A stretch of 64,000 nucleotides of DNA, taken from NCBI RefSeq assembly GCF_000002995.4, contig NW_025062477.1, positions 12,134,696-12,198,695 of the forward strand, given 5' to 3'. The translations under genes were made by a program, and so were the position numbers. This stretch comes from Brugia malayi. Lineage: Eukaryota; Nematoda; Chromadorea; Rhabditida; Onchocercidae. Shown piece after piece: positions 40,729 to 64,000 of this stretch. Every line of letters begins with the position of its first letter. Position 1 is the stretch's first letter. A model generated the notes under the pieces. The model was not told where the DNA came from and did no database searches. It saw only the letters and a program-made list of their open reading frames with translations.

Positions 40729-43700
40729 ATGTACGACAATAAGCAATTATTATTCATCCGTTTGCTAATCATTTTTCTTGCTACAATTATAGTTCTTGAA
40801 ACAATAATTATTGGAATTTTACTACTACAACCGGTAGATATTTTCCTTTCTTTTTTTCAATTTAATTCAATTATTTCTTTTTCCAAACAATTAAAAAAGA
40901 TATTCCAAAAAAAAAAGGAAAAAAGAGATTTTAAGAATTTTTAAAATTTCAGTCATCAAAATTAATTAATCAACAAAATGATACATGCGAAATGATGATA
41001 AATCGTGCGCGATATCGACGAGAAATACGAAATGTTGAAGATAGTGATAAATGGAAATTCACAGATTTATCATTATCACCGTCATTATCACCATCTGCAC
41101 TGTATCTCCCAATTTATGCACAAATTTCGGTTATTTTTATAATCGAAAAAAAAAAAAAAAACACCTCTTCTAATTTAAAATTTGAATTTTCACTTGAAAA
41201 TTTCACCTTATTTTGCTTAAACCTTTTTTTGAAAAAAAAAAAAAAAAAAAGAATATCTGAGAATTGATGAAATACGAAATTAGAATCATTTAAAAACTTT
41301 AATATCATAAATATATGTTCATAACATTAAAATTTTTAAATTTAGGCATAAGTAATACCTTGTTTTAAGTTTGATATTTTTATACAATAACTTTTCCATG
41401 AATAATGTGTTAAACTAAGAACATTAATAATTATTTTATGCATTATTTTCCTCGAATTAATTATATTAAATATTAATATTGAAATTTTAGGATAAATCAT
41501 TGAAAGTTATTTGTGAGGAACATAGCAAACGACGTATGAAACACAAATGGAAGCATACAAAAATCTTTACGAATTATAGTAACAAACCGAGAAGCTCGAA
41601 TAAACGAGGTTATATTTAGAAAAACTTAAAAGCTTTCCTTATCATCTCGTAAGTGTCTTTTAAGTAAATCCTACTCGTAAGTGAATCCTGCTGCAAATGA
41701 ATTTTGAGCTAAATAAATTTAGTGGTAAGTAATTTCTGTTAGAAATCACAAAAACAAAAATTCTATCACAAATAAATGCTACCGTAAATGAATCCTGTTT
41801 CCGTCACAAATAAATCTGTCGCAGAAGCTTTGTCGTTACTGAATTCCATTATAAGTAAATGCAGTTATATATGAATCTTCTTTAAAAAGAAATGAAAAAG
41901 AAACATGTTTCATGCTTTAAATTAACTTTTATTTATATAATCCGGAATGTTCTCATCGTTATATTTGTCTGCAATTTAATCCGAAATCCGGATGATTGTT
42001 TTCCTATACGCATTATTAGTTCCTGCAGAATCAAGAAACATCCCATTGCATATATTTTAGTTTCCTTTACTTTCTTTTTTTCTTCCATATCATCAATAAA
42101 CTGCTTTGAATTTAGCTTTGAATTTTGCATGCGTCAAATACGTCTGATTCTTCGAATAATTATTTTATAAAATCCTAAATTAAAAATCCTAAATTAAAAT
42201 TAAAATTAAAGTTTTAACTAACAAAACGAAATATGCTAAAAAGCAGAAAGTATTCAGTAACTTGCAAATATATTCAGCTTTTCTTCAATTGCAATTGTCT
42301 TTTCTTTTACTCTCAATCTCTGTCACAATGGTAATACATGCATTTCTCGGAATTTTCTCAACATCTAATATAACATCTTATAAATAAGCTTAACAATTGT
42401 ACAGCTAATTTTCCAAGTTAATTGTCATTTTTTTTTTCTTTTTTTGCTTCAACTTAAATGACTATTTATGGTTAAAATAAGTAAATACACTTTTACGGTT
42501 ATTTTTAGATTTGAAAGAGAAGGAAAAGAATATTTTAGAAAAATGGGAATTGTTATTCATTGTATTTTTTCCAGGATGTGGTATGATTAGTTCAATTTCT
42601 CAACCACATATTTTGGCTCGGCGTTTGAATAGAATTGGTGGCATTGTTCGACATGGCACACGTTGGTTTCAGGTTAAAATCATTTCACACTTTTCAAATT
42701 TCATCTTTTATTGTGAATATTTTACAGTATGATTGGGCTTACACAGTATAATTATGGTATAATTAAGCCCAACTATTTTACAGTATAATTAAGCCTAATT
42801 AGCTATTTTACAGTATGATTATGCTTATTTGTTTTTTTTTATTCATAAAAGTTCATTAATTAATTAATTATTAATGCAAAATATTTTTGGCATTTCTACT
42901 ACAATGTAAAATTTTCTTCTAATACGATACTCAAAAGTCTAATTAATTACAACAGTATTAAATAATAATTCTAATTATATATGAATAGATTAATCTCAAA
43001 GCTTAATTAATCAGTAAAAAAAATTGGAGTAATTACAAAATTAAATATTGGAAGTCTCACATAGCATTGTTCAACATGAAAATAGTTGTAGTTAAAAAAA
43101 CAAAAAAAAGCTAAAAAATAAGTTAAATTATAAATTTGTAAATTATTCAAATGAAGTGGCAAATGAATGCAGTTGTGTTATTTTAAAACTTTAAATGAAT
43201 TTGCCTTATAATATAACGCAGATAAATATTTATCATTTATGCTATTTAAATATATTTTAATCATATTTAAACAAAAAAAAAAAATTTCTGCTAATTTCAA
43301 TGTTGCAATTAACTTTTTTTCGCTTAATTCTTATTTTTCTTATAAAATTTAATATGAATTTTAGACTGAATATTCGCTTGGATATAATGTTTTTGAATAT
43401 TATAATCTAACTGATTTACGATTTTCGCATCCGTCCGCGATACATTCTCTGGATTCGGCGCAATTTGATGGCACAGACAATGCCGCATGTTATGGAAATA
43501 ATTTTATTTATTACGCATCAGCAACATCTCGCATTTATTCATATCAAATTAATGAAAAACGTTCAAAAAGTGTAGCAATTGATGCTGTAAAGGTTTGCTT
43601 CAAATTTTTTAAATTATATTTATAATATTAGAAAAATTAATAGATATAAAAAAAAAAATGGATAACATACAAATTTTGCAAATTAATATTTTTCACATCT

Positions 43701-44932
43701 ACAAATGTTTGTTAACAGTTTATCAACAGCGACAATTTGAATTTTCTTGAAATTTGAAAATTTGAAAATTTTGAAGTTTTTTTTTTAAAAAAAGACGACG
43801 AAAATTAAATTTGAATAACACAATACATATTTGTATTCATTTATTAATATGTGATTCTGGCAAAAATTAGTGCAAATGTTGTTCGCCTGAAATTTGCTCT
43901 TATGTCAAATTTTTGATATCAAATCTAACAAAGTAATATTACCGTAGTAAAATTAGTAGATTTTAAAACGGATAGAAATATCTTTGATTTTATGCAAATT
44001 TCTCCATATGTTTCAGTGAATAATGATTGACTTTTACAAATTGTCATAATAATCATGAAAATTCTCAGTCATTTAGTCATCGTTATCTCACATAAAATCC
44101 GGAATTGACCACTGACCATCTGGGATAATGAGATTATGCCTCATGTTTAACTTGAAATATTTTGATATCTTTGATTGGTGACATGAAAACTCTTCTTCTG
44201 AAAAAGGAAGAAGGGAAGGCATTAAAATTACAAATTTACTAGTAATTCTTATCATTTAGTCAACAAATTATTCATTTTTCTCCATCCAAAAGATCTGATA
44301 TACATATATATTTAATCTCGGCTTGTAGACGATATTTCCTCATTCCATTTGATTAATTCGCTCAGTTCAATCGTGTTCATATCAAATAACAATAAAATTA
44401 AACTTGATTAAAATACTAAAAAAAAAAAAGAAAAAAAAACGATATGAGAATAAATTTTTACTAAATTAAAAAACTTTTAACTAATAAATCCTATTGAAAA
44501 AAAAAAATTCTTTTTTCAACTTTTCAGACTCCAATCTATAAATTTTCACATTCATATTTGGATTTGGAAAATGATGGTAATCATTTATGGATTTTATATC
44601 ATTCAATTTCCAATGGTACACTAAAAGCTTCGTTACGTGATTGCATAACATTAATTGAACATAAATCATGGATGTTAAATTTTTTAAATACAAAAACTAT
44701 TGTTAATGCATTTATTGCATGTGATTATTTGTATACAATAAGTCAGAATGTTACATCGAATATTTTAAATGTTATTTATGATTTTAGCACTGACAAATTC
44801 CTTCACAAAATGCCAGAAGTAGGTAGTTGGAAACGATTTGGTGTACCATCAAATGTACAGTATGACCATGTGACAAAAACAATTAATATTTTTGATAATG
44901 GTATTATTTACAGTATTACAGTACGAATGTAA
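40729..44932 (+). CDS. Type II membrane olfactomedin-domain protein (colmedin/UNC-122-like)
   Basis: Six exons: 40729-40833, 40953-41129, 41491-41608, 42575-42672, 43365-43592 and 44528-44932. They join in frame to 376 residues. Residues about 8-34 are one long hydrophobic segment (LLIIFLATIIVLETIIIGIL), which suggests a signal anchor with the C-terminus outside. A basic stalk follows, with an RARYRR furin-like site and many Ser-Pro. The olfactomedin domain runs from GCGMI (about 134) to the end. Its usual landmarks are present: NAFIACDYLYTIS, HLWILYHS, and the terminal YDHVTKTINIFDNGIIYSI. NLT, NGT and NVT are potential N-glycosylation sites. No collagen Gly-X-Y repeat is seen, unlike C. elegans UNC-122 and gliomedin, so close orthology is unsure. 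ATG follows an acceptor-like TTTTAG (40715-40716) by 12 bases, which suggests trans-splicing. An in-frame upstream acceptor for exon 4 exists at 42507-42508. Confidence 0.9.
41609..41885. repeat. Diverged minisatellite with donor-like GTAAGT words
   Basis: Directly after the donor of olfactomedin exon 3, a loosely repeated unit like GTAAGTGAATCCTGCT recurs many times with heavy divergence (GTAAATGAATCCTG, GTAAGTAATT, ATAAGTAAAT). Several copies look like good 5' splice sites. Confidence 0.55.
42715..42835. repeat. TTTTACAGTATAATTAAGCC repeat
   Basis: Three to four copies in the intron after olfactomedin exon 4, at about 42719, 42740 (partial), 42776 and 42811. Most contain TTTTACAG, which looks like a splice acceptor. 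Confidence 0.75.
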
Positions 44933-49405: not shown

Positions 49406-50354
49406 TATTAATTATTCTTACTGATTATTATTTTTTGGATTACCAACTGATTATTGTGTCTGTCCAACTACTATTTTCAACTACTGTTTGTATTTCGATT
49501 AACCGATTACTGCTTTTATTCGACCATACAATTTATTCATTCATTCTTACATTCTTTTTCTTTAATTTCTATGTATTATTTCCATGTTATTTAGCTATAA
49601 TTTGATAGTAATCTTTTCGATATTTTTCTTTAAATGTTAAATTTCAATAATAAAATCATTTCTTTTTAGTTTATATTTACGATTTGCTCAATGATTACAT
49701 CGATGTAAACAATTTATTTTAGACAAAGATATAACAAGTTTTTTTTTAAATTCTTTTTTCATTTCTATTTTGTATTTAAAGAAGAATGAAGTATTGGTAA
49801 TTAACATTAATCATTTGTCACCATTTCTTCCTTCCTTTTTTTTTCCTCCTCTTCCTTGTAAAATGATAATTATTCTGGTGACAAATTACAAGCAACAAAA
49901 AAAGACAAAAATTTCTATTCCTTTTCTTTTTATTTTCTCACAAAATAGTGTTAAAAAAAAATTTGTCATTTTAATTTTAATAGATACTATACAATCAACT
50001 ATCTAATCAAATAATAAAAATAAGAAATATTTTAGTTTTTTCATAATAACTTTCTAACACTTCGTTATAAATTTTTATTTTACTATTATTATTATTAATA
50101 TGGAGAGGATTTAAACTGAAATATAATATTATAAAATGAAATATATAAAAGAATTAAATTTAAAATACAAATGTATATGTGATAATCTAATTGATAAGAA
50201 TATATTATATAAAAAGCTTTCCTAAAACGAATGCTATTTTTAATTTTTTCCTTTTTTTTATATCAACAATGTATTTATGGCTAATTTAGTTTTCCAACAT
50301 ACTTTCTACTAAATTCATTCCTTTACTTTTCATTCAAATACCAAATGAATGTTA

Positions 50355-50430
50355 TGAGAGGAAGAGAGAGAGAGACAGAGAGAGGGGCAGAGGGAGAGGG
50401 ACAGAGAGAGAGGGGGAGAGGGACGAGTAA
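50355..50430. repeat. GA-rich microsatellite
   Basis: GA and GGGA repeats, nearly pure purine on the plus strand. Confidence 0.9.
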
Positions 50431-50504
50431 ACTGATTTTCTGGAGAATTCTGGAAAAGAAAAGAATAAATCGATAATATAGCATTAGAAATAATCGACAT
50501 AGCG

Positions 50505-50590
50505 CATACACAAATACACGCATAAACACACACACATACACAGACATACACACACATACACACACACAAACATACATACCCATACACAAT
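50505..50590. repeat. CA-rich microsatellite
   Basis: ACACAC and ACATAC units followed by the C-rich CCCCCAACCGCC stretch. Confidence 0.9.
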
Positions 50591-50635
50591 TATACAAACC
50601 CCCAACCGCCAACCACTAACCGCGCTAATATTGTC

Positions 50636-51000
50636 GTCGTTATCATTATCACTATCACTATTACTATTATTACTATCACTATCGTTGTTGCTATCACCCT
50701 TATCATCACTATCATTATTATCACATCACTGTTAGTATAAGTCACAGTCATTGTCTTCATCACTGTCAGTCACTATCATTGTCACGGCTACTATCACCAT
50801 CACTATCACTATGACTTTGACTATGACTGTCACTACCCCTATCATCAACATTATCACCATCGTTACTGTTACTATCAGCATCACTATCGCTATCACTGCC
50901 ACTATCACCATCATTATCGCTACTACCACTATCACTATCACTTTCGCTATCACTATTAGTATCATTATCACCATTACCACACTATCACTATCTTTAACCA
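50636..51000. repeat. TATCAC hexanucleotide repeat block
   Basis: About 360 bases of ATCACT, TATCAT and ACTGTC units. It produces poly-Thr/Ile and poly-Val/Ile ORFs on opposite strands that are not real. Confidence 0.92.
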
Positions 51001-51459
51001 AATCATTATCACTTTTCTTTTATCATGAATTACACTCCACCTTATATTTTAGCTTTTTGACGAAGCTTATTTACAAAGAAATTTAAACTTCGTACTATCG
51101 TACTAAATGAATTAATTTTGGTTGTAGAGTTTTGCTTTTTTATTTATTTCAGTTAGTAAATGTATGGATTACTTTACTTTTTTTTTCAAAATGTATGGTT
51201 TGAATTTAAATTACAGTTCTATTCCCGCTCTTATTTTCAGTTTAAAAACTAAGAAAAAAAAGAAAAAAAAAAACCTTTTTTTTAGAACAGTGACAAATTA
51301 CATTTGTATAATTTATGAGACATTCAATTCGAAAAAAAAGAAATTTTGAAATAATGTGATTAAAGCTCTTGAAACAAAGAAGTTCTTGTTATTGAGTTAG
51401 TTGACAAATGAATGATTTTACTTTTTCAAAATTTATGCTTAATTAAAATTACATTACAG

Positions 51460-52215
51460 TGGTAATGATGATAATGTAATGATGATGATGATAATGTGGT
51501 GATAATGATGATAACGATGATGATAACGATGGTGATGGTGATGATGATGATAATGATAATGTAATGATGATGGTGGTGATGATGATGATGATGTTAACAG
51601 TGATGATGATGATGATGATGATAATGTGGTGATAATGATGATAACAATGATGATAACGATGGTGATGATGATGATGATAATGATAATGTAATGATGATGG
51701 TGGTGATGATGATGATGATGATAACAGTGATGATGATGATGATAATGTGGTGATAATGATGATAACAATGATGATAACGATGGTGATGATGATAATGTAA
51801 TGATGATGGTGGTGATGATGACGATGATAACAGTGATGATGATGATGATGATGATAATGTGGTGATAATGATGGTAACAATGATGATAACGATGCTGATG
51901 ATGATGATGATAATGTAATGATGATAGTGGTGATGATAATGATAATGTGGTGATGTTGATGGTGATGACGATGATAAAAATGATGATAACGCTGATGATG
52001 ATAATGATGTAATGATGATGATAATGGTGGTAACAATAATGATGGTAATGATGATGGCGATGATGACATGATGGTAATGTGATGAAGGTGATAATGTTGA
52101 TAAAAGTGATGATAGTGCAGTAATATGATGATAACGGTGATAATAATGATAATGGTGATAACGATGTCGATGATAACAGTGATGACAATGATGACAACGA
52201 TGACGGTGATAATGA
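51460..52215. repeat. GAT trinucleotide block with 110-130 bp higher-order unit
   Basis: About 750 bases of GATGAT, GATAAT and GATGGT. A GTGGTGATAATGATG landmark recurs at 51496, 51626, 51747 and 51859, so the array has a longer unit of 130, 121 and 112 bases. The His/Ser-rich ORFs on the minus strand are artefacts. Confidence 0.93.
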
Positions 52216-52982
52216 GATGATTAATATATTACTTTAATCTATACTGGAAGATAACTTGTTCCAGAATGAATTAACAATGAAATGGATAATATTTGGGAAT
52301 GTTTTTCCGTCGATTAATATATTGACGTAACGGTCATATGGTTTGCATCATTATCACTAACATCGGGAGGATTATTACGCTGAACAGCATTGATAAGCTT
52401 ATCAACAATCTTTCTGATAAGTAATTATTGATCTCTTTTTATGATCATAATAATTCGTGATGTTTATGTACATTAATGTCTTTGTTTTTATCATATCATC
52501 TTCAGTATTGCTCTATTTTTAATTATTTGTCTGTTTATCAGTTAGCTATTCTGCTTATACATTTATTTGTTTGGTTGATTATTTTCTTACTTCATTATTT
52601 AGTAATTTAGTTATTTAGTATATTTATTCCTACCGTTGTAGGCATATTAATTTTCCCATTATTTCTTAAATTACCCTGCAAACTTATTTATTCATTATTT
52701 ATTTATTCATAAAATTTCCATTCATCTACACTTTAACCATTTTATTATTTCATGCTGTTCAGTTATTTTATTTTTAATTAGAAATTTATTACATTTTTGA
52801 CTTATTGAAGAATTCGCGCAATCCAAGAAAAAAATTCCATTCATTTTTTCTCATTTTTTATTTCATATTAACCATTTTAATTATAAGTATTTCGGTATAT
52901 TCATATTATTTGTTCCGTCTCTGTCAATGATTTATACTAGTAATTTTCATTTAGGATTTTTCATTTCGATCATTTGTAAGCA

Positions 52983-55900
52983 ATGATATTGAATAATGCT
53001 GAAAATTGGAAGCAGACAGCGATGGAAGGAGACAGAGATGCAACAAAAGTTTGTAATTTACGAGAACGACCATTATTAATACGAGTTAATGGAATATTAT
53101 ATGATATAGCATTATTTGCTTCAAAACATCCTGGTGGACAAAAGGTTTATTATTATTTTATTTTTCTCTTCTTTTTTTCTTTGCTTTCAATTTTAAGATA
53201 TTTTAAATATAAAAAATTTCAATTTTTTTTTTTTTTTTTGTTATTTTTTAATGATAATTTCATCAAGTAATAAATCATTTTACCTACTGAAATGACTTAA
53301 ATTTAAATAGTTAGCTATGTAAAGCACTGAAAACAGGAATGCTGTATGGTGTTATTTGAGACTATGATATTATTATTATTAAATTTTACATCTACTTTTA
53401 GATAATGAAATTATAGAATCAAATATTTTAGTAAAGTTACTCTAAGTTGCTCGAATAATATATCATACCCGAAGCGATATGATATATTGGTGAAAAAATA
53501 ATTTTTTATGTTGCTTTCAAACATTTTATCAAAGAAAAATAATCAGGGATAAGTGGGAATATATTGGGAGAAAAGAGGAAGAGTAGGAAATTAACATAGT
53601 GGTATAATTATAATTTCAGGTATTGATAATAAACATTCTAAAGATTGATAGAATATGTTTATGATATTTATTCTATAAGTGTTTAATTAACATAGTGATA
53701 CGATTATAATTTCAGGTAATATATTTCTAAAGATTGATAGAATATATTTGTGTAATTCATTCTCTAATATAATGATAGCAAATTTTTATGATATTTTGTT
53801 TTAGGTACTTAAACATTTAGCAGGTGAAAATGTTGATGAATATATGAATGGTACTAAGCGTATCCTTGGGGTTAAACATGCACATTCAGCTGCTGCATAT
53901 CGAATGCTTCAAAAATATTCCGTTGATAATTGCTATGAGGTTTGTTGTATTTTGATCGTAACTTATTTGTTATATGTAATACTTTTCATACGAAATATTT
54001 CAATAAACAATAAATATTTGTTTTTCGTAATACTAAATAATTTTTAGATATGTAATTTTGATTATTTTCTTGTAAATAATCCGTAAATAACGAATAACTT
54101 TTGTCTTAATAATAATAATATCGCAATTTTTTTTCTTTGTTGTTGTTATGTTCAAATTATAAGCTATAATTGAAAGTAATCAACGAAAGGATGAGCATTT
54201 GTCTTTTTACTAATATATAAAATGATAATTTATTGATGATGAAAATCAAACAAAATAAGGGAAAACTTGAATAAAAAATATATTGCCAGATTCGTTTAAT
54301 GAAGATTTTATCACTGCAGATTATCATTTTAAATTATAATAAGTAGTAACTATTATTTAAAGTTCATTCTGTTGAAAATTTCTATGCCTCTCCCATATTA
54401 ATAGAAATCTTTAAATTTCACATATTAGAAATTCTGAATCTGATTATTTTTTTCTCGTAATGTTTAACTAGTTTGGTTTGTTTCCAAAGATATTCCAATC
54501 TGAAATTTGAATATTTCTCGATAAGTGGTCACAAGTTGATAATTGTATTTGATGTTTCAAATTCATAATGTTCACTTTTTGAAGGGAGACGATGAATTAT
54601 TATCTGATAAGCCAATTTTAAGTAAAGTGGGCTATTTGGGTGATCGATACTGGACGTGGATTCATCAACCATACGATGGAACACTTCGATTATTTGAATC
54701 AGATATTTTGGAAAATATGACTAGGACAAGTTGGTGGGTGGTACCACTTGTTTGGTTACCTTTGGTGATTATCTTTACACTACGCGCTTTTTCAATGATT
54801 TTCCAGGACTATGGTGATTTTTATTGTCAGTCTCAAATTATATTTGTTTTTTGAATGTCGACACTTTTTCTTGAATGTTTGTTTAGGTTTTAGTTGTTAA
54901 AAAAAAAGAAAAACTAATGTTTACATTAAATGAAATTAATGTGAAATATTTTTCTCTATTTTACTTTATATAAATAATACTTTATACGAAGATATAACCA
55001 GCTCGTGTTTTGATCATGCAACTTTACTCAAAATGAGATTTTAAGAAATTTGATGTGCTGGATAATATATAATAGCTTGATATTATAATTTTTATAAATT
55101 TCCGTTTTTTTTTTTTTTTTGATCGTATTTCTCTACAGGATTTCTGTACGGCCTCATTATTTGGACGTTCCTTTTTACATTAGGTGTTCTTGCATGGACT
55201 CTTCTGGAATATCTTCTTCATCGTTTTGCATTTCACTGGAAGCCTAATCCAGAATCACGCATTCAAATCATTTTGCATTTCCTATTACATGGTTTGCATC
55301 ATAAAGTTAGACTTTCGATTAGTTTTTGGAATTTTTTTTTCGAATTATTTTCATGCGCGATTTTCATTTCCAATTATTATTTAGTTTTCCTTTTCTTTCT
55401 CCTCTCTTTTTTTCCTTTTCCTTTTTTGTAAATGTTATTCCTACATACTATTACAGTAGTGATCACATTTGAAAATTTTCCTTTAAAATTTTTTATATAT
55501 TCCGATGATGCGAAAGTCTTTAAGTACATATACTTTTTGTTTTATTAGTCTTATTAACTCTAACATTTTTCATTGGAGCGATGAATTTAAATATAAAGTG
55601 ACAAATAATTCCTAATATTAGGTAAAGAATTTAATCCATTTATAAGCAAACTTTTTTCAGACACCAATGGATGGTGATCGTTTGGTTTTTCCACCTGTGC
55701 CGGCAGCTCCAATTGTTGCATTTTTTTATTATTTATATACTTCATTACTACCATACGACTTGTTTTGTTGTTTTGGAGCTGGTAAATTGTTTGGTTATAT
55801 CATTTACGATTGTTCACATTATTATTTTCATCATGCCGATCCATTACCAGGAACAAATCTACACTTTCGAAAAGTCTATCATAATAATCATCATTTCAAG

Positions 55901-56291
55901 CATTTCGATTTGGGTATATTTTTTTTCTTTAATCTTTTGTTGTTTTGTAATCTTTACTTGCTCTCTTTTAATCCAAAATACTTTTTCCTTTTCTTATTAA
56001 AAAATAATTTTAATTTGATAACATAAATTAATTCGACAATATAATTCAATAACTGGTCGAACTACAAAACGCAAAATAATCAATGTAAAAAGAACTCTTG
56101 CTTTGATTTAATCTTATATGCACAGTAAAAAATAAAACAATTTTTTCCGGAATCTCATTCCATTTTTCCATTTAAAACTAATAGTATTATCGGGGAAAAC
56201 TTCATTATTATTATTATTTTTTCTAGCTTTTGGTATATCGACTGTTTTATGGGATTATGTTTTTAATACAGTTGGTGCAGGTCCACTATGA
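52983..56291 (+). CDS. fath-1: Fatty acid 2-hydroxylase
   Basis: This enzyme 2-hydroxylates fatty acids destined for sphingolipids, at the ER membrane. Six exons: 52983-53144, 53805-53939, 54585-54813, 55139-55305, 55661-55913 and 56227-56291. They join in frame to 336 residues. Residues about 27-90 are a cytochrome b5 domain with the haem motif HPGG (49-52) and a second His in HAHSAAAY. The hydroxylase part has two hydrophobic stretches (WWVVPLVWLPLVIIF; GLIIWTFLFTLGVLAW) and the metal-binding His motifs LEYLLHRFAFH, LHGLHHK, DCSHYYFHH and YHNNHHFKHFD. The RLVFPPVPA segment is also typical. Length fits the family (about 310-370). Met-14 is an alternative start. Exon 3 uses a weak acceptor (TTTTTGAAG). 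AATAAA at 56695 is a possible poly(A) signal. Identity is secure; the symbol follows C. elegans. Confidence 0.96.
53591..53765. repeat. 96-bp tandem duplication carrying a splice acceptor look-alike
   Basis: Two copies start at 53591 and 53687 with TTAACATAGTGRTA. Each contains ATTATAATTTCAG/GTA and then TTCTAAAGATTGATAGAATA. The real exon 2 acceptor (TTTTAG/GTACTT) is only 40 bases further on. Confidence 0.85.
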
Positions 56292-57408
56292 TCAATTTTC
56301 ATTATTTCGTATTAAAAGTTGAACTTCTATTCATTCGGGTATTATTTTTCTATTTCTTTTTTAATATGGAAACAAAGTGTTTTCATATTTTGCTTACTAT
56401 TCATATACATATCTAACTTTATCTCCTGAATTACTGTTCTAATGTAATTAATGTACTGCTTTATAATTAATTAATTACATTAATTTATAGGAAAAAAAGT
56501 TTTTTTTTTTTCATTCCTTTGAAATTATCATGTGAATTACATTCTTATTAAATATTCCTGTAAATTATATTAACATGTAATTAATGTGATATTTTATAAC
56601 TAAATTGTATGCTAAAATGTGTTATAGCGTTTACTTTGTAGCAGTACTACTCGTAAGGTAAATATATAGAGATTTCTTTCATTTAGAATTTGTAAATAAA
56701 ATCAAAAGATCTGATTTTTGTTTTTTTGAATAGCGAGGAATAATTTAATAAAAATATTCTCGATTAGTTGTAGTTTACTTTCTTTCCTTTCCTTCTTTTT
56801 TTTTTTTTTTATTAAATTTTTAGAATTTATATTTCCTGTTTCCATGATTTTCATCCAGTCATTTCGATTTCAATATTACTTTTAATTACTTGGATTTCAA
56901 TATCATTTTGATGATAACTTAATCTATTAAAAGATAGATTTCCATTAAAAAGATTTTTTTTTCTTTTTTTCCATTGAAAGATAGGTATTAGGTATTTTTT
57001 TTTCAAGTCTATAAATTGATATCTATTAAATAAATGCTCTTTGTCCTGATATTTTATCGAAATAAGTGGAAAATATGTTGTAATACATTGTGCCAAATTG
57101 TTCAATAAAGCATATTTTGTTCAAGAATTATCTCAAACATAGCAATGATAGTGTTGTGATAAAAAAAGAATTACATTGCTATTAGAAATTCAATACAATT
57201 TCTACCGATTAATATTTAAAGTTATGTTTCTTTTGATTTGTTAGATAAGTTTTAGTTTATTAATGGAATAAAATGCATAAAATTGACCATGATAATTTTA
57301 CCAGTCGTACTAGAAATGATAAAAATGGAGCAATCCATTTCTAGGATTTGATAATCAATTACTACTAACCCCATAATTGTAATTAGATTTCATTTATTTC
57401 TTTGAAAT
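56292..57408. other. 3'UTR and spacer before the NOP10 cluster
   Basis: No gene is recognised in about 1.1 kb after the hydroxylase stop. It is AT-rich with a T tract near 56798 and a Lys/Asn-rich minus-strand ORF (56851-57105) of no recognisable family. Confidence 0.55.
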
Positions 57409-57819
57409 ATGTCGAAAGAAATTATGTAAGTGAGGATTTATTGACTTGAATTACTCAGCAAGGATTTACTAATTATTAAAAAATTCACTGAATAAGATGA
57501 AGCAAAAGACATTCTTGCTATCTTACTTCTTTTTTGACTTCATCCCATATTTAATAATTTATGGTGACACCAAAAAAAAAGACATAACCGGTTTATTACT
57601 GACTTCTTTCCAAGTTTATTACTGAAGATCATTCCATCTACAAACTATAACAAGAAATACGGATTTTGCGCATCTGGAAATGTCAATTAGGAAGAGATCG
57701 TTGATAACATTAGCAAACACATTGGGATCGATAATTTTCGTAAAGCGACTTTCATTCATCAGGGGGTCGCATTTATTGCTTTTGGGATTGTGACGTTGTG
57801 GAGTTACTGTGATTTGTAA
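57409..57819 (+). CDS. Putative 40-residue membrane micropeptide, first gene of the NOP10 cluster
   Basis: Two exons are proposed: 57409-57425 (MSKEI plus two bases) and 57714-57819. The donor is a perfect GTAAGTGAG and the acceptor is ACATTAG. They join in phase as a 40-residue protein: MSKEIIKHIGIDNFRKATF followed by a hydrophobic segment, HQGVAFIAFGIVTLW, ending SYCDL. The layout is a short amphipathic or basic head with one membrane segment near the C-terminus. I do not recognise the family. Support comes from the much higher G+C of 57660-57819, the clean splice frame, and the stop lying just 90 bases before the NOP10 acceptor. Against it are the very small size and a weak acceptor; another frame of exon 2 is also open for about 57 codons. 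Confidence 0.45.
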
Positions 57820-57910
57820 ACTGGCGGAACTGCGAGATGTTATAAAGGTGATTCATTAATTTTTACAACTTCAAATTGATACATATAGTTATACTAAGTT
57901 GATTTTGTAG
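57820..57910 (+). promoter_or_regulatory. Intercistronic spacer and NOP10 trans-splice acceptor
   Basis: The gap from the upstream stop to GATTTTGTAG (AG at 57909-57910) is 90 bases plus the acceptor, close to the roughly 100 bases typical of nematode operons. NOP10 ATG follows 13 bases after the AG. Spliced-leader (SL2-like) processing is inferred. Confidence 0.45.
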
Positions 57911-57923
57911 ATATTTGGTTGTA

Positions 57924-59163
57924 ATGTATTTGAAGTTTTATCTGGACGAAGAAGGCAATCGAGTTTATACTCTTAAAGTAAGTCATTTCATATTTGTCAC
58001 TCATTGGTATGCATATCAAAAGATTCAATTATCACACGAAATGGATTGACTGACAAGTTAGCATTGATTTAAGTTCTTTCTGAAAAACATCAAAAATGTT
58101 GGATGTTAGTATTAAGCTTAAATGTCATAATGAAAGTTCGGCGTTCATAAATTTGATATTGTTTTGAGTGATGGTCAGGAATGATTTCGATTATCATAAC
58201 TCGGATGAATAATGTTGCGTAAGTCACCAGTTGTTTTAGTTGTTATTTAGATCCGTGAAAAAAAAAAAAAATTCTTAGACATTTAAACTACTTAGATTGA
58301 TGAGGCAGCGAATAAGTCGCAAGATTATTGTGATCAAAATTTATGACCATGTTTTTTCTAGAAACGATTTAAATGGTTATGCTCTTAGTTTAACTTTAAA
58401 AAAAAGTTTAAAAGTGACTATGCTTTTAGTCATGATGTTTGTATTGTGATTGCCAATGAAAATTTTACTTTACAGCATCATATAGGCATATCGGTTTCCT
58501 TCGAGAATCATTAATAATTGTACCTTATATTTAATAATGATGCTTAGATGGGATATTCCTTGGCTGTTAAGGTGTGATAGTAATATTAAGTAGCATCATT
58601 AATAGTGGCAGTTTCTCAAAACTAATAGGTCACAGTCTTCATTTCGCTAAGTTTATCTAATCTTTTCTTTCTCTTACCCTCTGTTCTGGCTGATCGTGAG
58701 AGCATAGTTTTGAATCAGTTTTGACAATCATTGTCTTTGAGATTTTAGAGTTTTCTCTTTGGGGATAGATAAGTTAATTAAGATATTAGCTGAATAATGA
58801 ATTAGCTTAAAATGGATGGCATCCTTTCATCCCTCTACATTTAGGTAGACAAAGGTCTCAATTTCTTAAATTTACCATTCCTTTCATGTAGTTATTAGGA
58901 TGCCGACAATGCTTGGAAAAGGAGAGAAGAAAAAAAAAAAAAAAAAAACCATTAGTTTTATATTTCTGAGTTGTTGAAATTTCTTGGTAGTTAAGGAAAA
59001 TATAATTTAAATATTGTTTTAGGGTATAGATCCACAAGGCCGACAAACGCAAAGTGCTCATCCAGCTCGTTTTTCACCTGAAGATAAGAATTCGAAATAC
59101 AGAATAATTATTAAAAAGCGTTTTAATATTTTGCCTACAATGCAGCCAAAACCAGTTTATTAA
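57924..59163 (+). CDS. nop-10: H/ACA ribonucleoprotein subunit NOP10
   Basis: NOP10 is a core protein of H/ACA snoRNPs, which make pseudouridines in rRNA and snRNA in the nucleolus and Cajal bodies; in vertebrates it is also part of telomerase RNP. Two exons, 57924-57977 and 59023-59163, join in phase 0 to 64 residues, exactly the family size. The head [18 protein letters not shown] and the stretch [20 protein letters not shown] are diagnostic, followed by KKRF and a QPKP tail. The zinc-ribbon cysteines of archaeal Nop10 are missing, as in other eukaryotes. The acceptor of exon 2 is ATTGTTTTAG and the donor is GTAAGT. The single 1045-bp intron is less AT-biased than other introns here. It is the middle gene of a tight three-gene plus-strand cluster. 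Confidence 0.97.
57978..59022 (+). other. NOP10 intron, compositionally atypical
   Basis: This 1045-bp intron has fewer homopolymers and visibly more G+C than other introns in the window. Introns of snoRNP-protein genes sometimes host snoRNAs, but I found no convincing pair of C (RTGATGA) and D (CTGA) boxes at proper spacing. H/ACA folding could not be judged by eye. Confidence 0.4.
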
Positions 59164-59210
59164 TTCTGAAAATAAAAACGTGAGGTGTGGTTGCAAGTAC
59201 AGATTTTATT
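59164..59210 (+). promoter_or_regulatory. Short intercistronic spacer with trans-splice acceptor
   Basis: NOP10 stops at 59163. TTGCAAGTACAG ends at 59202, and the next ATG is at 59211. The 39-base gap up to and including the acceptor is too short for an independent promoter, so co-transcription and trans-splicing are likely. Confidence 0.65.
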
Positions 59211-60038
59211 ATGTTAGTTTGGGAATGGCGACGGAAATGGCGACAATATATTCGTAATAGGCGACCACCATCACGTTTAACATATCAACAGTTGACAAAG
59301 AGGTTAGTACAGTATTCCTGCTTTGGAAGGAGGAATGAAAAGAGAAGGTGTTATTTGAGTAATAATGATATATTTGAAAATTTAACATTCTAGACTATTT
59401 TCCTTTTGTTCCTTTTTCGTTGAATCATGTGTTATATTCAGGGCTTTATGAGATTAGTGAGCTCTTTTCGTCCTAAAAATTTGTGATATTGTGATCATCA
59501 AGCAGTTGTGTTTTAATTATAAAAACAATGCCTAATTATTCGCATTGCTAATAACCATTCATTTTCTATATTATTGCGCTCTCTGTGCCTGATTCACTGA
59601 GATCTAATACTCTGTTTTTTTATTTGGTACTGAATAGAAATTTCAAGCACTTATGCATTCTGTTGCTTTGGACAACGGCTAAATATTATAAACATTTTCT
59701 CCTATCCAGGTATTGGGTTACAGTGGGAAAAAATGTAAGTTGAAAAGAGTGTTAAGTAGGAATGGGATCCGAGTGTTCTACAAAATATCTTGATTTGTTA
59801 AGATTTTTTTTTTAATTTCAATGATTTTTTTTTTCGTTTCAGGTATACAAGAGTGTCATTCGTTCTTTTCGTTGTAGGATGGCATGCCATTGGTTTTGTA
59901 ATATGGAAAAAAGTAGAGAAATTGAAGAAAGATGATCCGCAAGAAAAAGGTTTACTAAGTGAAATATCCCAAAAAGGTTTCATGGACTTCACAGAAGAGG
60001 AAAAAGAGGATATTGATTTTGAAAATAGTGATAAATGA
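59211..60038 (+). CDS. Small single-pass membrane protein downstream of NOP10
   Basis: Two exons, 59211-59302 and 59843-60038, join in phase 2 (AG plus G gives Arg) to 95 residues. The N-terminal 35 residues are strongly basic (MLVWEWRRKWRQYIRNRRPP). Residues about 34-52 are hydrophobic (VSFVLFVVGWHAIGFVIW), then a KK-rich stop-transfer and an acidic tail (EEEKEDIDFENSD). ATG 59211 is chosen because the AG at 59202 excludes the earlier in-frame ATG at 59187. The layout resembles small mitochondrial inner-membrane assembly factors, but that is only a resemblance of layout and I do not recognise the family. A candidate AATAAA is at 60700. The acceptor CGTTTCAG and donor GTTAGT are good, and the open second exon supports a real gene. 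Confidence 0.78.
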
Positions 60039-60934
60039 GAACGGTGATGATTCCATTAAGAACATTGACCTACCTTTATTGCCGTACATTATTAAAATGA
60101 GATTACACAAATACCTGGGTTGCTAGAAGTCAATATCACTTTTCATCCTCTTGTGTCCTTTCTTCTACTCTTCTTGTACGTCTCCACTCTATCTGTATGC
60201 CCTTTTCGTTTTCTTTAATTTGATTTTCAGCGCTCGGTTTCAATATTGTTACGTTGCTATTTTTGCTTGTGAATGAAAGTTTAGAAAAATTTTTAAAATT
60301 CCGATGTTATCACATTAATGGAAATTTTGTAAATCTTACTCTCTTCCTTTATCGATGAACTTTAAACCCAGTCCTCATAGTTCACACAAAACAAACGCAA
60401 ACCTCAAATCGCTCATATCATTTCATGGCTTACCTATCATTTTTTTGAATTTTTTATATTGAAATAGTACATTACAGTAATAGATGTTTAATTATAACTC
60501 ATTGTTATTTATGAATGCTTTTATCTTTGGGAAACTTTCCTAGTTGAAATTGCAAATGTAGATGCAGTTTTCCTCTGTAAGTAACTTTATGCTAGCATCA
60601 TAGAAAAATAAGTAAAGAGTACCAGTCTCTTGTTATGAATGATAAATATATAAAATGTAGAAAAATTTTTAATGTATCAACAGCATATAGAAATAACAGA
60701 ATAAAAATGAAAACACGAATGCAGCATTTCGTTGGCGAAAGGTGTGATAAGCAATGTAAAACATTAATAGTTATAAGTGGATGAAGCGTAACAAGGAAGG
60801 AACATATTTTAAGTTGTTGAAAATTGAGAAAAAACTTTGATTAGCAACCGAAAAGAAGCGTTGAAATTAAAACTACTTTGCTAATTGAGAAGAAACAATG
60901 TTACTGAAAAAAAGAAGGAGCCATCTGACTATTA
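60039..60934. other. Convergent 3' region between the cluster and eEF1A
   Basis: The last cluster gene and eEF1A converge here. No exon is recognised. A plus-strand AATAAA at 60700-60705 could end the cluster transcript; no canonical AATAAA on the minus strand was seen for eEF1A within this stretch. Confidence 0.6.

Positions 60935-64000
<3,066 letters not shown>

Follow-up and report, generated by a model that had tools for sequence, protein, structure and literature searches.

Introduction

Two kinds of nematode operon offer the closest comparison for the locus described here. The SL1-type operons of Caenorhabditis are described as having no intercistronic space (Williams et al. 1999, as cited in a passage of PMC9258526). 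Those published for Brugia malayi have wide spacers, with medians of 915 nt for new, 906.5 nt for validated and 1362 nt for annotated operons, and true operonic ORFs in this species typically exceed 100 residues (PMC7704054). The operon genes examined in B. malayi and Ascaris carry SL1-like leaders, 98% of them canonical SL1, and the sections of that report dealing with leaders record no SL2-like leader in this lineage (PMC1657053).

The window analysed here is a stretch of 64,000 nt with a G+C content of 22%, located on a 13.95-Mb contig of B. malayi. The genome searched comprises 86.8 Mb in 139 contigs, and the loci examined fall in part on five chromosome-size contigs of 13.5 to 24.9 Mb. 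An initial annotation of the window had proposed a three-gene operon, in which NOP10 would be bracketed by a 40-residue and a 95-residue single-pass protein encoded on the same strand. Spacing, adjacency in relatives and a public protein, P0001, speak for the operon as far as NOP10 and the 95-residue gene (hereafter gene 3) are concerned; the trio is not established, its 40-residue cistron being unsupported. With a probability of roughly 0.7, we consider NOP10 and gene 3 to be the last two cistrons of a filarial operon that is resolved by SL1 trans-splicing.

Results

NOP10 and gene 3

The two genes and the spacer between them are made up as follows:

57924..57977, + strand: NOP10 exon 1, from the ATG; 18-residue translation, then GTAAGT
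59023..59163, + strand: NOP10 exon 2, to the stop; acceptor TTTTAG ending at 59022
59164..59202, + strand: spacer from the NOP10 stop to the gene 3 acceptor, 39 nt; AATAAA at 59171-59176, G/U-rich, AG at 59201-59202
59211..59302, + strand: gene 3 exon 1, encoding an Arg/Trp-rich N-terminus
59303-59842, + strand: gene 3 intron, 540 nt, absent from P0001
59843..60038, + strand: gene 3 exon 2, encoding the membrane helix and an acidic tail, to the stop

The identity of NOP10 is borne out. Once its single intron of 1,045 nt is removed, the gene gives a complete product of 64 residues that covers the whole Nop10p domain (PF04135, positions 1-52 of the 52 of the profile) at 81.6 bits, well over the curated cut-off of 27.2. 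At E up to 0.001, the genome has no match to this family other than exon 2, which scores 55.3 bits. The central gene of the locus thus encodes an ordinary NOP10 (NOLA-3, an H/ACA snoRNP protein), in which we saw no unusual feature, and the passages on NOP10 in PMC2442092 and PMC8942280 make no mention of the neighbours of its gene.

Gene 3 is a real, conserved and unnamed gene for a small single-pass membrane protein. The initial annotation was right to place such a protein 3′ of NOP10 on the same strand: the gene consists of two exons, its relatives occur in seven named species, and its splice junction is confirmed by P0001, an identical database protein that runs uninterrupted over the intron. 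Of the 11 candidates in the protein search, nine had an E of 10 or less. These are P0001, identical over all 95 residues, seven proteins of named species (Onchocerca volvulus, Loa loa, Elaeophora elaphi, Litomosoides sigmodontis, Setaria digitata, Thelazia callipaeda and Dirofilaria immitis) and the fragment P0008. The relatives in the seven named nematodes are 57-81% identical to the query; eight of the nine matches show 57-100% identity over 68-100% of its length, and the one in D. immitis 76% identity over 42%. Residues W4 to R17 are invariant across nine aligned sequences, which include that of the window and the identical P0001. A profile search of 534 candidates added two fragments and nothing further. 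Thelazia and Setaria both fall within Spirurina, where we take the other five carriers to belong as well. No named relative outside Spirurina was found by the word-based protein search, and on the sequences at hand the gene 3 product seems so far to be known from Spirurina only.

The protein is less of a newcomer than the word "unrecognised", first applied to it, implied. The databases already have it for Loa loa, Litomosoides and Setaria, labelled hypothetical, unnamed or uncharacterised, and it is hidden within the NOP10 models of Onchocerca, Elaeophora, Dirofilaria and Thelazia; the claim stands in that it has no name. No second copy of gene 3 was found in the genome, where it is present once, with its intron. 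A 25-nt micro-exon noticed by eye in this intron was dropped: it shifts the frame and is absent from P0001.

What kind of protein does gene 3 encode? Residues 1-34 carry a charge of +10 and residues 62-95 one of -8, and there is one hydrophobic stretch, or helix, at about 35-53. This arrangement of a basic N-terminus, one helix and an acidic tail is that of small single-pass mitochondrial inner-membrane proteins, among which are assembly factors of the respiratory complexes. The charge pattern leads us to guess that the gene 3 product is most likely a protein of this class. Its targeting to mitochondria is weakly based, however, because the amphipathicity of the N-terminal helix does not stand out from that of shuffled sequences, of which 2,490 in 10,000 reach its value. 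Furthermore, and in contrast to the resemblance in plan, we obtained no significant match to Pfam (best E 0.14) or to the PDB sequences (best E 1.4, a ribosomal protein). An AlphaFold model of P0001, built on a 10-sequence alignment, predicts helices at 4-23, 30-69 and 71-92 with a mean pLDDT of 70.9 and a pTM of 0.31, and a PDB fold search with this model of modest confidence gave no match at E up to 10.

The spacer between the two genes

The distance from the NOP10 stop to the gene 3 acceptor had been given as 38 nt; it is 39 nt, and the gap is indeed very short. Location on the same strand at very short spacing is a mark of nematode operons, and the pair displays it. The AATAAA of the spacer ends 26 nt before the acceptor. 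Because poly(A) signals in B. malayi lie 10-20 nt ahead of the cleavage site (PMC7704054), cleavage of NOP10 is predicted about 6-16 nt before the gene 3 acceptor. This acceptor is weak: AGTACAG agrees with TTTTCAG at 4 of 7 places, and so do 26% of all AGs scored in the window (2,274 in total). Only 40% of the 20-nt tract is pyrimidine.

Gene order in relatives and the P0001 protein

NOP10 and gene 3 share a single public protein model in four of the seven named species (O. volvulus, E. elaphi, T. callipaeda and D. immitis), which places them next to each other in those genomes. The models concerned are P0002 (Onchocerca), P0004, P0007 and P0009; adjacency was judged by these fused models, with Loa, Litomosoides and Setaria outside the comparison. 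The gene order expected of a nematode operon is therefore found in at least four other species. The fusions themselves look like gene-prediction errors, judging from their sequences: the joins vary by species, and three of the four (all but T. callipaeda) lose the end of NOP10. Wrong fusion of operonic genes is a recognised annotation fault, according to the portion of PMC7986045 devoted to it. The public NOP10 models of these four nematodes thus appear doubtfully fused to the downstream membrane protein. Among the literature matches listed, taken by their titles and the starts of their abstracts, none names the NOP10-gene 3 cluster.

P0001 has 103 residues, eight of which precede the 95-residue start. 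These extra residues correspond to the frame of the window from 59187, a GTG read as start inside the spacer. This start lies 16 nt upstream of the exon boundary formed by the acceptor, and at least 16 of the 39 nt of the spacer are retained. Since the 540-nt intron is absent and the sole genome copy carries that intron, the source of P0001 is most likely RNA, cis-spliced but not trans-spliced. The sequence strongly suggests an RNA that retained part of the spacer; it implies RNA from 59187 through the gene 3 splice junction and, as P0001 opens with translated spacer, some transcripts would begin upstream of the acceptor. P0001 would thus support transcription from 59187 or farther upstream, and carries no implication of an extension into the NOP10 reading frame. 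Its source tag, "lgn", presumably denotes an assembly of public reads. The P0001 cluster comprises 8 member sequences, spread over 25 contigs of up to 2,981 nt.

The segment upstream of NOP10

Three features are at issue 5′ of NOP10:

57409..57425, + strand: proposed first exon of the 40-residue gene (unsupported); ATG, 17 nt, good-looking donor AT/GTAAGT
57714..57819, + strand: proposed last exon of the 40-residue gene; otherwise within a NOP10 leader exon that ends at 57847, or within a promoter region
57848..57910, + strand: possible cis intron (or outron/spacer) to the NOP10 acceptor, 63 nt; AG/GTGATT ... TTTTGTAG

Region 57640-57850 is more likely a leader exon or the promoter of NOP10 than a separate 40-residue cistron. 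Our first choice, held with a confidence somewhat short of even, is that 57640-57847 forms the 5′ leader exon of NOP10, joined to it through a cis intron at 57848-57910, which leaves no cistron where the initial annotation had put one. The AG/GTGATT and TTTTGTAG flank an AT-rich stretch of short-intron size. Moreover, AGGTRA is rare, with 14 occurrences on the + strand of the 64,000-nt window and only one between 57000 and 60100; taken together, this AGGTGA (at 57846) and the NOP10 acceptor at 57910 would delimit the 63-nt intron. The Onchocerca model, as far as back-translation allows us to judge, would join the homologous region to NOP10 at the same acceptor. On the other hand, this reading was found after the fact, the donor implied in Onchocerca lies at another place, and the Onchocerca model is itself a doubtful fusion. 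The remaining weight for 57640-57850 goes to promoter or other noncoding sequence.

An operon of three cistrons, consisting of the 40-residue single-pass protein, NOP10 and the 95-residue protein, seems unlikely to us, and a first gene of 40 residues is not established. The region of its last exon is GC-rich (0.40 over 57691-57816 versus 0.22 for the window) and open for 42 codons, the proposed frame encodes a hydrophobic stretch, and a TATAAA at 57841 is a possible poly(A) signal of this gene. The coding score of the frame, 9.8 bits, exceeds the 95th percentile (0.4) of 644 stop-free noncoding windows while staying under their maximum of 12.6. However, the exon shows no preference for this frame. 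Indeed, a frame with six stops scores 15.3 there, whereas in the known exons scored (NOP10 exon 2 and both exons of gene 3) the true frame was the best of six in all three. Shuffling the exon left an open frame in 686 of 5,000 cases, 431 of which scored at least as high. The Onchocerca model P0002 opens with a related stretch, but this fits two frames about equally: 7 of 12 residues are alike to the 40-residue frame (hand count) and 8 of 12 to an overlapping frame (as inferred by back-translation), and the stretch common to both frames scores 3.6 in the former versus 3.3 in the latter. The acceptor at 57713 is poor, with 3 of 7 consensus bases, and is the only one to yield 40 residues among the 18 AGs able to follow exon 57409-57425. 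A homology search of the peptide was equally unfavourable: no homologue was found among proteins, where no candidate shared three words, nor any match in Pfam, for which a close variant was scanned, or in PDB. False operons often hold an ORF fragment of 30-60 residues (PMC7704054). The gap of 90 nt reported before NOP10 exists only given the 40-residue gene; the leader exon puts the 63-nt cis intron in its place.

We find improbable, to a higher degree, an ultra-compact operon in which NOP10 would stand between two lineage-specific membrane microproteins, with poly(A) and SL1 acceptor signals close to each other at each junction. If true, the competition between 3′ cleavage and trans-splicing would fix the ratio of ribosome modification and two mitochondrial-membrane proteins.

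Two candidates for the identity of the first gene were not retained. The overlapping frame (ATG at 57680, 37 residues) reaches 15.1 bits against Ost4, for which the Pfam cut-off is 25, and the genome has two clear Ost4 matches elsewhere (50.4 and 50.2 bits), located on different chromosome-size contigs (L013:1501-1599 and L014:1501-1599). The likeness of the 40-residue frame to TOM6 (PF15184) was one seen by eye; Pfam gave no match for the peptide variant, and PF15184 had no match in the genome, at the control loci as elsewhere.

Neighbouring genes

The nearest gene upstream on the same strand is the following:

52980..56291, + strand: probable fatty-acid 2-hydroxylase gene (FA2H/fath-1 type); outer limits of open frames, not exact exon ends

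Two of its six scanned frames matched Pfam, one to Cyt-b5 (PF00173, 21.1 bits) and one to FA_hydroxylase (PF04116, 25.4 bits), each under its cut-off (23.7 and 31 bits, respectively) with the frames scanned apart. The two domains occur in the expected order, cytochrome b5 and then hydroxylase, on separate open frames. The other four frames, the last included, gave no Pfam match and were assigned by eye. From the stop at 56291 it is 1.1 kb to 57409 and 1.6 kb to the NOP10 acceptor. Because 1.6 kb is an ordinary distance within filarial operons and the strand is the same, the FA2H gene, absent from the cluster as first drawn, may be the cistron with which the unit begins. In C. elegans, nola-3 is presumably C25A1.6, a neighbour of fath-1. 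The latter is C25A1.5 in the part of PMC3660743 that names it, and synteny of FA2H and NOP10 conserved with C. elegans is only a lead.

On the other side, a convergent eEF1A gene has its stop at 60935, 0.9 kb from the end of gene 3, and each of its four scanned frames matched an elongation-factor family over the cut-off. The gaps in the cluster had been called far below every other intergenic distance; the comparison was made here with the FA2H (1.1-1.6 kb) and eEF1A (0.9 kb) neighbours, both of which lie at greater distances. Just upstream of the FA2H gene, 50323-52233 is a long low-complexity region with Ser/His/Ile- or Thr/Ile-rich open frames on both strands, and the + strand carries at 43365-44932 a gene with an olfactomedin domain, one frame of which matches PF02191 at 56.9 bits. 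No RNA gene reached the gathering threshold in the window; three weak RNA-family matches fall within 56200-60800, all under their gathering scores.

Discussion

For NOP10 and the 95-residue gene, an operon is probably the best reading, on the strength of their adjacency in at least four species and of the spacer sequence carried by P0001. We propose that a single transcript would cross both genes. The 3′ end of NOP10 would be formed downstream of the AATAAA at 59171, and trans-splicing of the spliced leader SL1 to the AG at 59202 would release the gene 3 message. About 6-16 nt would then separate cleavage from trans-splicing, a closeness similar to that in the Caenorhabditis SL1-type operons. 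The SL1 leader is found in 303 exact copies in the genome, versus none for the reversed control. It forms tandem arrays on contigs C18 and C65 of this genome (G000), where many of the listed copies are about 454 or 630 nt apart.

Could gene 3 instead be independent, with a promoter of its own inside the last exon or the intron of NOP10? The weakness of its acceptor would suit such an arrangement, and so would the start of P0001, which implies transcription only from 59187 or farther upstream. But the spacer is 39 nt long and the promoter would have to sit within NOP10 itself, and we regard this explanation as quite improbable. A single fused protein, or a bicistronic message without trans-splice resolution, is the least credible of all, for although fused models exist in four species and P0001 keeps spacer sequence, the frames are here parted by a stop and 47 nt, and the irregular joins and lost NOP10 ends of those models point to the annotation fault mentioned above.

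If NOP10 and gene 3 do belong to one operon, the locus represents, in an unusually tight form, a type of gene arrangement that roundworms are known to have, and its compactness would set it apart from the widely spaced operons published for this group of parasites. It would also offer a natural setting in which to ask how 3′ cleavage and SL1 trans-splicing divide some 30 nt between them, the leader sections of PMC1657053 reporting no SL2-like leaders for this lineage. The conserved 95-residue family, hidden by fused models in four species, points to an apparent annotation fault that can be easily checked.

The comparison with published B. malayi operons gives both likenesses and a clear difference. 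The NOP10-gene 3 pair shares with them its location on the same strand and its RNA-processing gene content, and the downstream genes of those operons receive SL1 and their polycistronic RNA is recoverable, according to PMC7704054 and the operon sections of PMC1657053. Their spacers, in contrast, are far longer than 39 nt, although PMC7704054 does not state that they were measured from stop to acceptor. Furthermore, a size filter could miss an operon such as this one, because both of its ORFs are under 100 residues. In the SL1-type operons of Caenorhabditis, the cistrons are adjacent on the same strand, and the upstream 3′ end and the downstream acceptor nearly coincide, as we propose here. The genes of those operons touch, in the account cited from Williams et al., whereas here 39 nt separate the stop from the acceptor, with cleavage predicted just ahead of a putative SL1 site at 59202. 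In conclusion, the NOP10-gene 3 pair is closer to an SL1-type operon than to the usual filarial kind, its spacer of 39 nt standing against medians of 906.5 to 1362 nt.
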